NCBI GenBank assembly: GCA_002508705.1
Contig: DAYL01000023.1
Location: forward strand, 28,521-84,365
Reading direction: 5' to 3'
Length of the DNA: 55,845 nt
DNA from: Methanoculleus sp. UBA374
GTDB lineage: Archaea; Halobacteriota; Methanomicrobia; Methanomicrobiales; Methanoculleaceae
Positions within the stretch are counted from its first letter, which is position 1. Every line of letters begins with the position of its first letter. Under the pieces are notes generated by a model. The model worked only from the letters and a program-made list of their open reading frames with translations, was not told the origin of the DNA and did not search any database. This document shows, piece after piece, positions 20,929 to 37,639 of this stretch. The position numbers and the translations under genes are program-made.

Positions 20929-23900
20929 ATGAACCTTATCTATATCGGCTCCGGGTCCGGGGATAACCCTCTCCTCTCCCGTGCGGCGGCCGACCTCTGC
21001 GATGAAGGTGTACCCGTCACGGTTCGGTGCGTCTGTTCGGAAGACCTCGACGGCAACGAGGAGCTCTTCATCGGGACGGTGGAACAGGTCCGGGATGCCT
21101 CGTTCGTCATCATCAACCTCCACGGCTCGGTGCCCTACTTCAAGAAGTTCCCCCGCCTCCGGGAGGAACTGGAGGGCCTTCGCGCCCCCGTCTTCGTCGC
21201 ATCCACGCTTCCGGACGAGATGGAAGAATTCCGCCATCTGTTCCGCCTCGCCGAAGAGGATTACCGTCTCGTTCACGCGTATCTGCACCTCGGCGGCTAC
21301 GAGAACATGCGCTCCCTCCTCCTCTTTGTTCACGGCCGCATCGACGGCGGGTCCCCGGCCGCCCCCGATCCGGTCCGGCCTCCCGCCCACGGTATCTACC
21401 ACCCCGGAAGGCCGCAGGATGCATCTCCCGAAGACTACCTCGCCTCCCTCCCCCCCGGCGCACGAAAGGCCGGCATCCTCTTCTGGCAGGGCGATTACCT
21501 CGAGGGGGCGCTCGGGGGGGTGGACGTGGTCATCGCCTCCCTGGAGCGGGAAGGGCTTTCGACCATACCGGTCTTCTGTTCGTCCGTGCCGGACCCCGTC
21601 TCGGGTTCGCCGGGGGTTGCGGAGATCGTGAGGAAGTATTTCATGAAGGAGGGGAAGGCAGTCGTCGATCTTCTCGTCGTCCTGATGGGGTTCTCCCAGA
21701 TCAGCCTCTCCTCTCCCGGCGACGGCCGTTCAGACGGAGGCCCGGGGAATTTCTTCGCGGAGCTCGGCGTGCCGGTCCTGCAGGCGATGGTCACCGGTCA
21801 GAGCCGTGACGACTGGGCGGGCAATATCCGGGGCCTCTCTCCGCTCGAACTCTCGTCCCTCGTGGTATGGCCGGAGTACGATGGGCAGATCATCACCGTC
21901 CCGGTTGCCTCGCGCGAATCGGAGGACGGCGCCCGGCAGGTCCGGGGGATCGCGGAACGGGCCGACCGGCTCGCGAAGATGGCGAAGGCATGGGCGGATC
22001 TGCGTGCAACCCCCGTGGACGAGCGAAGGGTCGCGGTGCTGCTCTACCAGTACGGCCTCTCGAACGACTCGATCGGGGGAGCGTTCGGCCTTGACGGTCC
22101 GGAGAGCGCCGTCCGCATCCTGCACGCGCTCAGGGAGGCGGGGTACGACTGCGGAGACGACCTCCCCGCAACCGGGCAGGACCTGGTCCTCCTGCTCCTC
22201 TCCGGCCTGACCAACACCCCCGAGTGCCTCACCGGGCCGGAGATGGTCCGGCGGGCGGCAGGGACGGTCGGCCGGGACGAGTACCGGGAATGGTTCTCCG
22301 GGCTGGACTCCACCTGCAGGAGCAGCATGCTCCGCGACTGGGGGGAGCCGCCGGGAGCCGTCCTGACCGAGGGGGACCGGTTCCTTATCCCCGGAAGACG
22401 GTTTGGAAACGTCTTCGTCGGCCTGCAGCCCCCCCGGGGATTTCTCGAAGAGGCGGAGGCGGTCTACCATAGTACGGACCTCGTGATGCCTCACCAGTAC
22501 CTCGCATACTACCGGTGGCTGAAGGAGGGGTTCGGGGCGCAGGCGGTCGTCCACCTCGGCACGCACGGCACGCTCGAGTGGCTTCCGGGCAAGAGCTTGG
22601 CGCTCTCGTCGTCCTGCTACCCCGACGCCGTGCTCGAGGACCTCCCTCATCTCTACCCGTATGTCATCGACAACCCGGGAGAGGGGGTCCTGGCAAAACG
22701 GCGGTCCCATGCAGTCATCGTCGACCACCTGATCCCGGCGATGACCCGGGCGGGAGGATACGGGGACCTCGAGGACCTCGTCCTCCTCCTTCAGGACTAT
22801 TTCCGCGCATCGCGAAGCGGGGAGGAGGCCAAGGCCGACGGCCTCCTCGAAGAGATCGCATGCATCGTTGAACGGACCGATCTCGCCTCGGATCTTCATC
22901 TCCGGTCTACAGCTCCTTCGGACCTGCCGCCCCACCTTGAGGCGCTCTACGATTACCTCTGCACGGCCCGCGACTCCCTGATCAAAGACGGGCTGCATAT
23001 CTTCGGCGAAGTCCCCGAGGGGGAGCGCTTCTGCGAACTCCTCTACGCCCTGACCAGGATCAGGAACGGTCGGATCCCTTCCCTTCGGGAAGCGGTCGGG
23101 CGGGCGATGGGCGAGGATGCGCCTCGTCTCGCCGCCGACCCGTCCGGCTGGCATTCCGGGCGGGGGATGCCGAACGGCGTCGTCCTGGAGGAGATCGATC
23201 GACGCTCCGCCGATCTGATACAAAAGATGACAAAGACAGGATGCGACCCCGCGAGCATCCCCGGACTGCTCGGGGAGTTCGACGACCGCGAGGAGCTGGA
23301 GACGGCGCTGGAGGCGATCTGTACCGAGATCGTACCGGCGGTGCGGCGGACCGTCGACGAGATAGGGAGCCTTGCGGCGGGTCTCGACGGGCGCTACGTC
23401 TCCCCGGGGCCGTCGGGGGCCCCTACACGGGGCAATGCGCACCTGCTCCCGACCGGTCGGAACTTCTACTCGGTCGATCCCGCCACGATCCCGACGCCCC
23501 CGGCCTTTGCCGTCGGGAAGAGGATGGCGGAGGAGATGATCCGGCGATACGTGGCCGAAGAAGGCGTTTACCCGAAGAACGTCGGGATCGTGGTCTTCGC
23601 CACCGATACCATGAAGACCGGCGGGGACGACCTCGCCTACCTCCTCTGGCTGATGGGTCTTCGGCCCGTCTGGTCCGCGTACGGAGGGCGGGTCGCCGGG
23701 CTGGAGGTCGTGCCGCTCTCCGAACTGCAGAGGCCGCGGATAGACGTGACCCTCCGGATCACCGGCCTGTTCCGGGACGTCTTCCCCGGTCTTATCGACC
23801 TGATCGACGAGGGCGTGGAGATGGTCGCGAGCCTGGACGAGCAGGACGAGGACAATTACCTCGCGGCCCACCTGCGCCGATCGCTTCTCGATGCGATCCG

Positions 23901-36530: not shown

Positions 36531-37639
36531 TCTTCCCGGGCCCTCTGTTTTGCAATCCAGGCGATCGTTCTCTGGAGGTGCTCCCCCACCGGCTCATCGG
36601 CGGCGAGGAGGGAGAAAAACTCCTCGTCGGGCTTCGTCCCGCAGACCTCCGGCATCGTGCAGAGGATCTTTCTGGCTGCGGTCCCCCCGGCCGTTTCCGG
36701 GAGGAGGCCCCAGCCGATCTCGTCCATGATGTGGATGACTGCGGTCGCCACGGAGAGGAGAGCCGGGTCTTTTGCGGTCTCCCGGAGGGACTGGATGAAC
36801 AGCGGCTTCCGGTTCTCGCCTGCCATGGAGGAGGCCCTGGTCCAGAGGTCCTCTTCCCCGATCGAGAAACGGCTCAGTCTGACCATGATATCCTGCTGGG
36901 ACGCCGGCGAGAGGCGGGATTGACGTTCAAGGGCGAGCCGGGTCGCCTCCATGACGGCCCTGCCGATCAACTCCCCGAGTTTCGAATGTTTTCCTGCGTC
37001 GGTCAGGTTCTTTTCGTGGGTGGTGTCCGCGATGACGGCGATGCCGTCCGTTCCCGAACCGGTCGCGATGCCGGAAGAGTACCTGCTCGGGGCCATCAGT
37101 TCCTGGAGAACGGCTGTTTTCGCTTCCGTCGCGGTGATGACCGCCCGGGTCATCGTATACGCCGGGAGGTCGGCGCCGATGAGGAGGAGGGTGTTGATCG
37201 TGCCGGCTATCATCTCGATTTCTCCGTTTTCCTGGAAGTAGGATGCCGGATCGCCTACCCGGCCTCCGTTCACCTCGATCCCGGCGGTGACGACCGCCGT
37301 GACTTCGACGCCCCGATGAGCCTTCGTCACCGCGGCGGCGTGCTTCATCCGGGCTGCGGTCAGCAGTCCTGCCGTTTTATCAGGATCGAGGCCGAGCCTT
37401 CCGGCTACGAGTGCGATGTACGCTTCTACGGACCCTCCTTCGAGGTCGTGAGACTTGAGGGCGCGGTGGGGCGGCTGGTGGTTGAACACCCCCGTCAGGT
37501 CCTCCCGGTACCCCCCGTTCACCCAGGACGTGGAGAAGACGGCCCGTCCGGGCGGCAGGCGGATGTATATGCTCTCTTCTGTCCGGAAGATCTCCTCTCC
37601 GTTCGAGGTGATCCTGATTGGAAGGTTTTCTGTGTCCAT
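36527..37639 (-). CDS. CbiZ-like adenosylcobinamide amidohydrolase, C-terminally extended
   Basis: Residues of the first ~230 fit CbiZ: FSTSWVNGGYREDLTGVFNH, AGIEVNGGRVGDP, GTINTLLLIGADLPAYTMTR, and YSSGIATGSGTDGIAVIAD. CbiZ cleaves the aminopropanol side chain of cobinamide during salvage of corrinoids in archaea. About 120 extra residues follow, helical and ending in IAWIAKQRAREE, so the protein is longer than plain CbiZ. The ATG at 37639 is preferred; a frame upstream to 37738 has no family match. It is the first gene of the nine-gene cluster and overlaps the ChlI-like gene by four bases. Confidence 0.85.
   Translation of the reverse strand: MDTENLPIRITSNGEEIFRTEESIYIRLPPGRAVFSTSWVNGGYREDLTGVFNHQPPHRALKSHDLEGGSVEAYIALVAGRLGLDPDKTAGLLTAARMKHAAAVTKAHRGVEVTAVVTAGIEVNGGRVGDPASYFQENGEIEMIAGTINTLLLIGADLPAYTMTRAVITATEAKTAVLQELMAPSRYSSGIATGSGTDGIAVIADTTHEKNLTDAGKHSKLGELIGRAVMEATRLALERQSRLSPASQQDIMVRLSRFSIGEEDLWTRASSMAGENRKPLFIQSLRETAKDPALLSVATAVIHIMDEIGWGLLPETAGGTAARKILCTMPEVCGTKPDEEFFSLLAADEPVGEHLQRTIAWIAKQRAREE

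Follow-up and report, generated by a model that had tools for sequence, protein, structure and literature searches.

The locus analyzed here raises the question of what a nitrogenase-like enzyme does among genes for a CbiZ-type amidohydrolase, a class I metal chelatase and a BtuFCD-type importer. In the window, by which we mean the whole stretch of 55,845 nucleotides from this Methanoculleus-like genome, ORF and family searches found ten genes, all open at the coordinates given below. Nine are on the minus strand and convergent with the tenth, on the plus strand, which encodes the CobN-type large subunit of a class I (late) metal chelatase, of a type specific to the module (20929..24672; PF02514, TIGR02257). 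The minus-strand genes encode, from upstream to downstream, a CbiZ-type adenosylcobinamide amidohydrolase that carries an additional helical part at its C terminus (36527..37639), a ChlI/CobS-type AAA+ chelatase subunit (35490..36530, from family searches), a ChlD/CobT-type chelatase subunit with an AAA lid and a von Willebrand A domain (33683..35500), an importer substrate-binding protein of the BtuF/IsdE type (32274..33596; PF01497, with a hydrophobic N-terminal stretch in its translation), the permease (FecCD/BtuC type, 31192..32307) and ATPase (BtuD/FecE type, 30176..31195) of the ABC importer, both recognized by family searches, a CbiK-like protein (29140..30000; PF06180, 130 bits), a NifH-NifD fusion (26804..28990; PF00142, 265 bits, and PF00148, 224 bits), and a NifK-like subunit (25527..26807; PF00148, 145 bits). 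The CbiZ open frame extends back to 37738 and the start at 37639 was kept; the start of the NifK-like gene was placed at 26807, and a longer mechanical ORF to 27134 was set aside. The original prediction had described nine co-directional, mostly overlapping genes faced by CobN, and this layout holds: overlaps occur at 5 of the 8 minus-strand junctions (CbiZ/ChlI, ChlI/ChlD, BtuF/BtuC, BtuC/BtuD, and NifHD/NifK, where the NifK-like GTG start overlaps the stop codon of the fusion), and the other three junctions are gaps of 86, 175, and 149 bases. A tRNA-Ser predicted inside the NifK gene was judged false, being 73 bases in length and lacking the long arm that tRNA-Ser normally has.

Whether these genes belong together was analyzed in other methanogens. 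With a threshold of E < 1e-90, the NifH-NifD fusion was found in 9 of 150 Methanomicrobiales genomes; this threshold is strict and overlooked genome G008 although its locus (L013) carries the fusion. Eight of the 150 genomes, all among the nine with the fusion, had CobN of the window type (1348-1483 bits; next best, 712), a co-occurrence with Fisher p = 1.7e-12, kinship ignored. The ninth genome (G151), a draft assembly in which the contig breaks off next to the locus, gave no CobN match. Distant methanogens carry the gene set as well, with protein identities mostly of 35-66%. Across 19 methanogen loci of two orders, Methanomicrobiales and Methanosarcinales, NifK was found in 19, CbiZ in 17, BtuC in 16, BtuF in 15, ChlI/D in 11, CbiK in 10, CobN in 9, and a TIM-barrel protein in 7. 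In these orders no gene accompanies the fusion and NifK as constantly as CbiZ does, and in two loci (L013 and L123) the fusion and NifK stand alone. A bacterial CobO used as query detected no CobO in the 19 loci. Genomes whose fetched stretch had shown no CobN were searched again, and 5 of 19 such genomes gave none. The recurrence of the gene set and the confinement of this CobN to fusion genomes among the 150 searched are more than chance. This bears out the claim that the genes form a conserved unit that includes CobN, and the proposed co-occurrence of the fusion with the chelatase set is observed in Methanomicrobiales. Outside the two orders, fusion loci are mostly without CobN and CbiZ: in 12 such loci (from bacteria and Methanomassiliicoccales, a few of the contigs being short), CbiZ was found in none and CobN in 1 (L009), BtuC and BtuD in 5, and a TIM barrel in 1, and 6 had none of the tracked partners. 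As a control, we inspected 80 loci with NifH relatives; CobN was present in 6 and CbiZ in 4, and in every one of those loci the NifD falls in the module group.

Related nif-like genes, separate rather than fused, were found in 71 of 250 Negativicutes genomes (NifD type), and 44 of 84 places were inspected for their neighborhoods. A partner gene was present in 38 of these 44 loci, and 6 had none of the tracked partners. The partners were BtuF (29 loci), CobN (28), BtuC (26), a TonB receptor (23), ChlI/D (21), CbiZ (19), radical SAM (17), TIM-barrel (14), BtuD (14), CbiK (10), and C-N hydrolase (9) proteins, and CobO (5, confirmed as PF02572 at L038). The chance expected for CobN per 20-kb stretch is 0.7-1.9% in four of these genomes. 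Some genomes have a second copy without such neighbors (L210 and L212; L208 has BtuC alone). In 12 of 33 loci scanned, the nif-like operon is preceded by a same-strand cobalamin riboswitch (RF00174) at a distance of no more than 400 bases, and in 4 more the riboswitch lies 1.0-1.8 kb upstream; none at all was detected in 14 of the 33, and an RNA family scan detected none in the archaeal window. The riboswitches directly upstream of the operon tie the nitrogenase-like enzyme of Negativicutes to corrinoid metabolism, and the corrinoid involvement that had earlier been only presumed is thus backed by genomic evidence. CbiC is present in 39 of 40 module genomes, so the hosts are apparently able to make corrin and salvage would not be needed for life. 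Among the bacterial hosts are named strains (Phascolarctobacterium faecium, Sporomusa acidovorans, Dialister succinatiphilus), which makes an experimental test practical.

To understand what kind of enzyme the nitrogenase-like proteins could form, we analyzed their ligand residues. The fusion consists of an Fe-protein domain (approximately residues 10-275) and a NifD-like domain (approximately residues 322-715) in which Cys322, Cys347, and Cys414 are present. These three NifD-type cysteines align in 19 of 20 archaeal D rows, the remaining row being gapped, and in 42 of 42 bacterial rows. In the window NifK, Asp9, Cys34, and Pro107 occupy the positions of the three P-cluster cysteines of nitrogenase NifK, and Asp, Cys, and Pro are found there in 20 of 20 archaeal K rows. 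For a [4Fe-4S] cluster of the DPOR kind, held by three Cys of one subunit and a ligand of the other, an Asp and a Cys are available in K beside the three D cysteines, but BchB has its Asp at a different one of the three positions. The Negativicutes K rows keep all three P-cluster cysteines in 39 of 42 cases, so a P-cluster-like center is possible in these bacteria. A non-Cys residue is found in 61 of 62 module D rows, including that of the window, at the position of the cysteine that anchors the FeMo-cofactor in nitrogenase; one archaeal row has Cys. The ligand residues, namely Asp/Cys/Pro in archaeal K and the loss of the cofactor cysteine in D, make nitrogen fixation unlikely. NifB is missing in 13 of 22 Negativicutes genomes hand-chosen among the 71, in which no precursor of a carbide cofactor is therefore expected. 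It is present in 17 of 18 methanogen module genomes, with one copy inside this window, and was dropped as evidence either way for methanogens because L-cluster-like centers also serve MCR activation there (passages of PMC12176620, where a cited preprint, by its title, calls NifB essential for methanogens).

Against curated models of the known families, the nitrogenase-like proteins of the window score below the cut-offs. Scores were 280 bits for nifH (cut-off 394), 67.5 for nifD (654), 179 for BchL (345), 27 for BchN (420), 68-69 for BchB (490-509), 296 for CfbC (402), which is the best-scoring model for the Fe-protein domain, and 26-30 for CfbD (268). The closest solved relatives of NifK are MarK (9d9u_C, 74 bits) and BchB (3aet, 64 bits). 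In a tree sampling Nif, Anf, Bch, and Cfb, with no methylthio-alkane reductase row among them, the D and K subunits are placed apart from all of these rows and so join none of the characterized clades sampled, an outcome on which the original prediction depended. A predicted model supports the Fe-protein fold of the fusion; the best 50 matches of the fold search with this model were all Fe-proteins, leaving the D domain uninformed. F430 synthesis was rejected as the function because CfbC and CfbD scores are far below the cut-offs and a separate CfbD gene, which groups with labeled CfbD, occurs in a module genome (G266, locus L173), and the distinction from this pathway drawn earlier stands. 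In G280 and G001, frames about as long as CfbD carry short PF00148 matches and are candidates for such a gene.

The window CobN scored 1230 bits with PF02514 and 986 bits with TIGR02257 (cut-off 822), and its closest solved relatives are CobN (7c6o, 762 bits), ChlH (474), and HmuS (370). The ChlI and ChlD of the locus (33683-36530) scored 458 and 476, below the joint cobaltochelatase cut-off of 779. By family score and partners, CobN-ChlI-ChlD classifies as a CobN-type late cobaltochelatase, for which cobalt insertion is predicted. The window CobN forms its own clade with the CobNs of other methanogen module loci; this clade and the confinement of the type to fusion genomes led us to reject the idea that CobN is a stray neighbor. 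As to the objection that the chelatase might have an ordinary role in strains without nitrogenase-like genes, CobN is found in 43 of the 150 Methanomicrobiales genomes without a fusion match, yet these are other CobN types.

Among the remaining proteins, CbiZ scored 200 bits with PF01955 (gathering score 27 bits) and gave a predicted model of pLDDT 84. Its extra C-terminal part matched designed repeat proteins alone in a profile search (E 0.29 or worse) and gave weak amidase-like matches in a fold search (TM-scores of about 0.3). The CbiK-like protein scored 82 bits with the NCBIfam model (cut-off 400), and its second best solved relative is FetB, a heme-binding protein. Of two CbiK-aligned histidines, which are catalytic in known CbiK, the first is lost and the second kept in 11 of 11 methanogen copies, and both are kept in 8 of 11 bacterial copies. 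A role as an ordinary chelatase is hence not supported for the methanogen protein. The best NCBIfam model for the permease is BtuC (175 bits, cut-off 334) and the BtuF model scored 20 (cut-off 234); no importer model reached a corrinoid-specific cut-off, and a corrinoid is the putative substrate.

We propose that the locus is a conserved corrinoid-salvage module in which the nitrogenase-like complex is an ATP-driven reductase of the imported corrinoid macrocycle, often accompanied by a dedicated late chelatase. We infer the substrate and the bond, and give this reading a probability of roughly 0.45. The BtuFCD-type importer would bring a corrinoid into the cell, where CbiZ would remove the nucleotide loop to leave a cobyric-acid-type ring. 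The Fe-protein domain would hydrolyze ATP and pass low-potential electrons to a putative [4Fe-4S] cluster held by the three NifD cysteines and a NifK ligand, and the tetrapyrrole would be reduced in the cavity equivalent to the FeMo-cofactor site of nitrogenase. CobN, ChlI, and ChlD may set or reset the metal at the center of the ring, with cobalt the likeliest. The CbiK-like protein, instead of working as a standard chelatase, may bind the ring or pass it on, and the product would re-enter the cobamide pathway of the host. Riboswitch control in bacteria implies that the genes would be on under cobalamin scarcity, which fits salvage or repair. In favor of the corrinoid reading we counted the co-occurrence, the synteny, the Negativicutes partners, the control loci, the riboswitches, the kept D cysteines, the lost cofactor cysteine, the NifB gaps, and the precedent of DPOR and CfbCD, relatives that reduce tetrapyrrole rings with [4Fe-4S] clusters alone (passages of PMC12552129 and PMC7242693). 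Against it we counted the outside-order loci mostly without CobN and CbiZ, CbiC in the hosts, the partnerless loci, the riboswitch gaps, the absence of CobN from 5 of 19 genomes, the bacterial NifK cysteines, methanogen NifB, and the importer scores below cut-offs. The bond reduced is a guess, since the corrin ring is already reduced and we know of no natural product of corrin ring reduction that fits. A bolder formulation, which we advance a shade more tentatively, makes the complex an ATP-driven corrinoid reductase and the first enzyme of the nitrogenase family in vitamin B12 metabolism. Together with CbiZ and a dedicated late cobalt chelatase, CobN-ChlI-ChlD, it would repair or remetallate the corrinoids that methanogens and Negativicutes scavenge when cobalamin is scarce.

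The reduction might instead be centered on the metal, Co(II) to Co(I) with the ring untouched, enabling adenosylation by CobO. The complex would then be an anaerobic, ATP-driven counterpart of CobR placed between CobN-ChlI-ChlD and CobO, as in the aerobic order CobN-CobS-CobT, CobR, CobO (passages of PMC7242693), and MCR activation offers a parallel, since in methanogens it uses ATP to drive the reduction of a metal held by a tetrapyrrole (passages of PMC12176620). CobO accompanies 5 of the 44 Negativicutes loci but is inconstant, the methanogen loci having yielded none, and the known family members with such a cluster type act on the ring. Flavoproteins, moreover, are usually enough for the Co(II) to Co(I) step, and we consider this reading unlikely. 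Reductive demetallation of imported corrinoids, or of heme, is quite improbable. It would have CobN working in the removal direction, harvesting cobalt or clearing wrong metals, as does HmuS, a CobN relative of the hmu heme-acquisition operon that removes iron from heme (passages of PMC12583661); the window CobN shares its locus with an importer, and FetB is among the relatives of the CbiK-like protein. However, the window CobN is closer to CobN than to HmuS, the locus contains ChlI and ChlD whereas HmuS is NADH-dependent and turns heme over when purified (same passages), and the hosts carry corrin genes and could reuse an imported ring intact.

Two further readings lead away from cobamides. 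The original prediction allowed for an undescribed tetrapyrrole cofactor, of which we found no sign; the steps would be import, removal of a side chain, exchange of the metal, and reduction of the ring. The gene set would be capable of this, and the bacterial loci repeatedly include radical SAM, C-N hydrolase, and TIM-barrel proteins, but the cobalamin riboswitches and CbiZ better match cobamide salvage and we know of no new cofactor common to these bacterial and archaeal hosts, so that we rate it as improbable as demetallation or slightly more so. The reading to which we give least credence is a function that does not concern tetrapyrroles, for example sulfur scavenging of the kind performed by methylthio-alkane reductase, or nitrogen fixation, with the corrinoid genes as accidental companions. 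The closest solved relative of NifK does belong to methylthio-alkane reductase, the fusion and NifK occur alone at L013 and L123, and half of the 12 outside-order loci have no tracked partner. Against this, the association is repeated in two domains of life with riboswitches directly upstream, the cofactor-anchoring cysteine is lost from nearly all D rows, and many of the chosen bacterial genomes are without NifB.

The known tetrapyrrole-acting relatives of nitrogenase serve chlorophyll and F430 synthesis, and a corrinoid-acting one, if confirmed, would extend the superfamily to vitamin B12. It would also explain a late cobalt chelatase in cobalt-early anaerobes, give a role to the long-unassigned archaeal CobN (compare passages of PMC12583661 and PMC8305020), and define a testable route by which methanogens, acetogens, and B12-dependent gut bacteria could salvage or repair corrinoids. 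Like BchLNB and BchXYZ, the module has an Fe-protein, a D/K-type pair, and three D cysteines, and BchB is among the best solved NifK relatives; it differs in its scores far under the cut-offs, its separate place in the tree, and its linkage to corrinoid genes, and family searches recognized no bch genes in the window. CfbCD, likewise a nitrogenase relative of methanogens, reduces a tetrapyrrole (Ni-sirohydrochlorin a,c-diamide, in F430 synthesis), but CfbD is a single homodimeric D whereas the module has a D/K pair, and genes related to it occur in non-methanogenic bacteria as well. The methylthio-alkane reductase MarHDK has a P-cluster and an NifB-dependent [8Fe-9S-C] cluster; the archaeal module K has no P-cluster ligands and 13 of the 22 chosen bacterial hosts are without NifB, which may set the module apart. 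CbiZ and a BtuFCD-type importer are shared with archaeal cobinamide salvage, a route that to our knowledge includes no nitrogenase-like reductase or chelatase. The group VI nitrogenase paralogs were reportedly first described in Meheust 2020. Those of Elusimicrobiota are called potentially tetrapyrrole-modifying, and the passages describing them mention no corrinoid, CobN, or riboswitch link (PMC11257099). Among the papers that literature searches retrieved, no title or abstract opening linked CbiZ, CobN, or a cobalamin riboswitch to an enzyme of the nitrogenase type, and full texts may mention such a link. The HmuS operon of Bacteroidota also places a CobN relative in an uptake operon; compared by overall scores with HmuS, whose family-specific heme ligands are Met-79 and His-254, the window CobN is closer to true CobN and has ChlI and ChlD adjoining, in contrast to the NADH-dependent, heme-acting enzyme (passages of PMC12583661). 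With CobN-CobS-CobT and the orphan archaeal CobN-ChlID the module shares a CobN above cut-off and the presence of ChlI and ChlD. The function of such CobNs is called unclear in the HmuS paper (passages of PMC12583661), and a Haloferax review speculates on a salvage role for archaeal CobN/ChlID (passages of PMC8305020). Unlike these orphan systems, the module adds a nitrogenase-like reductase and CbiZ to the chelatase, in hosts that carry de novo corrin genes.

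For the phenylalanyl-tRNA synthetase beta chain of the window, the best database matches apart from itself share 92% identity, and those with names come from Methanoculleus MAGs, so the DNA probably belongs to Methanoculleus or a near relative. On the minus strand of the window, nine genes run from CbiZ (37639) down to the NifK-like gene (25527), including those for ChlI, ChlD, a BtuF/C/D-type importer, a CbiK-like protein and a NifH-NifD fusion. Five of the 8 junctions between them are overlaps, which bears out the original prediction of nine co-directional, mostly overlapping genes. 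CobN (20929–24672, plus strand) is convergent with this run and faces the cluster, as had also been claimed. The product of the fusion gene (26804–28990, minus strand) has an N-terminal Fe-protein domain and a C-terminal NifD-like domain, and in a template-free predicted model the Fe-protein fold occupies approximately the first 275 residues. The NifK-like gene starts with a GTG codon at 26807 and overlaps the stop of the fusion gene; a 73-base tRNA-Ser called by ARAGORN within it (25695–25767, minus strand) is probably false. Elsewhere in the window, a NifB gene (46421–47395, minus strand; 371 bits against a cut-off of 344) is adjoined by a gene for a protein without family match (47376–48602), beside which, still near NifB, lies a methyltransferase/D-Ala-D-Ala-ligase-like fusion (48687–50678). 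Several Methanomicrobiales loci have an ABC-2 exporter pair downstream of NifK, in the stretch that leads to CobN (L001, L099, L101, L102, L103, and L104, where the contig ends ahead of any CobN), and a related pair is present in the window at 51318–53134, approximately 14 kb beyond the operon.

Among the best 120 of 2722 matches to the fusion, the named fusions include members from Methanospirillum, Methanosarcina, Methanolobus, Methanoregula, Methanomassiliicoccales and two bacterial MAGs. Several proteins of this set, between P0013 and P0047, are related fusions of approximately 1080 to 1100 residues; in P0013, the sole one aligned in full, two NifH domains precede the NifD domain and the near-invariant Cys509 is missing. 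At E <1e-90, the fusion was detected in 9 of 150 Methanomicrobiales and 9 of 149 Methanosarcinales genomes, a limit that overlooks some fusions, because genome G008 gave no match although its locus (L013, Methanosarcina KYL-1) has one. We analyzed 19 methanogen loci: 17 fetched places with up to 20 kb around each, the Methanoregula OWC_0057 locus (L001) as the eighteenth, and L013. NifK was present in all 19, CbiZ in 17, BtuC and BtuD in 16 each, BtuF in 15, ChlI/D in 11, CbiK in 10 and CobN in 9. L001 keeps the gene order of the window, CobN again lying on the other strand, and has no CbiK; no tracked partner was found near the fusion and NifK in L013 or in L123 (Methanosarcinales). CbiZ, the importer and the reductase are the core of the module in these two methanogen orders. 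A scan of named genomes, which gave at least 80 loci with NifH relatives, L001 among them, contained 12 fusion loci outside the two orders, from Methanomassiliicoccales relatives (L007–L010) and bacteria (L002–L006, L011, L012, L021). CbiZ was found in none of these 12, CobN in one (L009), a TIM-barrel gene in one (L003), and BtuC with BtuD in 5 (L005, L008–L011); 6 had no tracked gene, the stretch of L007 being only 4 kb. Therefore, the full gene set is a trait of the two methanogen orders, and the link to the importer is wider. In L003 (Sporobacter MAG, 1–14101), the cluster adjacent to the TIM-barrel gene, fusion and NifK, and convergent with them, resembles tetrapyrrole and cobalamin synthesis genes, judging the translations by eye.

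In four Negativicutes loci (Dialister, Phascolarctobacterium, Sporomusa and one MAG), the nifH-, nifD- and nifK-like genes are separate and have CobN in their neighbourhood; 3 of the 4 also have CbiZ. At E <1e-40, this NifD type occurred in 71 of 250 Negativicutes genomes, at 84 places. We inspected 44 of these, namely the four loci from the named-genome scan and 40 picked by hand, and found BtuF in 29, CobN in 28, BtuC in 26, a TonB receptor in 23, ChlI/D in 21, CbiZ in 19, radical SAM in 17, BtuD in 14, CbiK in 10, C-N hydrolase in 9 and CobO in 5. Six of the 44 had no tracked partner (L189, L210, L212, L217, L220, L221), some of them being second copies or on short contigs. Such partnerless second copies were seen in L210 and L212, and the copy in L208 has BtuC only. 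The chance of finding CobN in a 20-kb stretch, calculated from four genomes, is 0.7% to 1.9%. As a control, among the 80 loci listed by the named-genome scan, CobN was found in 6 and CbiZ in 4, and the NifD of every locus having either gene belongs to the module group. A TIM-barrel protein (AP-endonuclease-2/xylose-isomerase type) is encoded at 7 of the 19 methanogen and 14 of the 44 Negativicutes loci (21 of 63 in all; for example, L100 15684–16667, minus strand, and L038 18337–19311, plus strand) and was not found in the operon of the window. As a guess, it could be a cobamide-loop phosphodiesterase.

To follow the chelatase, we used the CobN of the window as query in the 150 Methanomicrobiales genomes also searched for the fusion, and obtained matches at E <1e-100 in 51. 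The top class consisted of nine full-length matches in eight genomes (1348–1483 bits, 48%–54% identity), one of which also has a 371-bit fragment; all remaining matches scored at most 712 bits. All eight genomes belong to the nine with the fusion (Fisher's exact p = 1.7e-12, kinship ignored), so the expected co-occurrence was found; the ninth, G151, is a draft in which the contig ends beside the locus and which gave no CobN match. In the CobN tree, module CobNs of Methanomicrobiales, G280 and the window form one clade (support 100/99), and the second CobN of the Methanoregula genome falls outside it. Because of the score break, the co-occurrence and this clade of its own, the window-type CobN looks dedicated to the module. 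When 19 module genomes whose fetched stretch had no CobN were searched again, 14 had one elsewhere (within approximately 15 kb of the nif-like genes in G035, G381 and G418) and 5 had none genome-wide, which indicates that the chelatase is common in module genomes and not obligatory. Twelve CobN-type matches, of which some represent fragments of a single gene, were counted in the Methanomethylophilaceae genome of L009 (G002, 1.9 Mb), and three Methanosarcinales genomes have six each, many lying in open frames of 1400 to 2300 residues.

A link to corrinoids comes from an Rfam scan of 33 of the 44 Negativicutes loci, which detected 45 cobalamin riboswitches (RF00174) over 19 loci. In 12 of the 33, a riboswitch on the same strand precedes the nif-like operon by up to 400 bases; in 4 more the distance is 1.0 to 1.8 kb, and in 3 riboswitches lie only elsewhere (two approximately 8 kb upstream). 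Distances were taken between the end of the riboswitch match and the beginning of that to NifH, or to NifD in loci where no NifH was detected. No cobalamin riboswitch was detected in the other 14 loci, in L029 (NifH-like gene only), in L057 (another nif-like type) or in the archaeal window. CbiC, a marker of corrin synthesis, was found in 39 of 40 module genomes, and thus the module does not replace de novo corrin synthesis. Of the two histidines that align with those of known CbiK, the archaeal CbiK-like proteins have lost the first in 11 of 11 copies and kept the second.

A tree was built from 97 D and K rows, with references labelled by NCBIfam or gene order and methylthio-alkane reductase not among them. 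The module D proteins of archaea and bacteria clustered as one group of 39 rows (SH-aLRT 99), which divides into separate branches for the fusions, for the Negativicutes proteins and for three further rows. As predicted, this group lies outside the known clades represented (NifD/NifE/AnfD, BchN/BchY, BchB/BchZ and CfbD), the exact place of the Bch rows being unsure owing to their long branches, and K is placed similarly with weaker support (87). The three P-cluster cysteines of NifD are kept in the module D domain; at the matching positions, K has Asp, Cys and Pro in 20 of 20 archaeal rows and three Cys in 39 of 42 bacterial rows. Where NifD has the cysteine that anchors FeMo-cofactor, 61 of 62 module D rows show a different residue, the exception being one archaeal row with Cys.

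Gene content, its conservation, the riboswitches upstream in bacteria and the ligand pattern are direct observations. Fe proteins couple electron transfer to ATP hydrolysis, and CbiZ converts cobinamide to cobyric acid. We infer that a corrinoid would be brought in by the importer, lose its nucleotide loop and then be reduced, driven by ATP, by the nitrogenase-like enzyme, with the central metal presumably set by CobN-ChlI-ChlD. Passages in PMC7242693 assign cobalt insertion with ATP to CobN, CobS and CobT. The strongest rival is that the enzyme would take the part of CobR, after CobN and before CobO, by reducing Co(II) to Co(I). The corrin ring is our first choice of target because of the family precedent: nitrogenase relatives whose clusters are all of the [4Fe-4S] kind reduce tetrapyrrole rings, according to passages in PMC12552129 and PMC7242693. 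A late cobaltochelatase homologue unneeded by the cobalt-early pathway is described for Haloferax in a review (PMC8305020), where salvage is speculated. That nitrogenase relatives may act on additional tetrapyrroles is, in general, not a new idea, because an Endomicrobia paper (PMC11257099) already suggests a possible role in modifying tetrapyrroles for group VI nitrogenase homologues. None of the titles, abstract openings and text passages covered by the literature search mentioned the link to corrinoids, the dedicated CobN or the control by riboswitches.

Finally, among 40 chosen module genomes (18 methanogens and 22 Negativicutes), NifB scored over the cut-off in 26, comprising 17 of the methanogens and 9 of the Negativicutes. 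Draft gaps aside, 13 bacterial hosts therefore appear to run the module enzyme without the carbide-cofactor pathway, and in this it resembles DPOR and CfbCD, the nitrogenase relatives of chlorophyll and F430 synthesis, which likewise work without that pathway.
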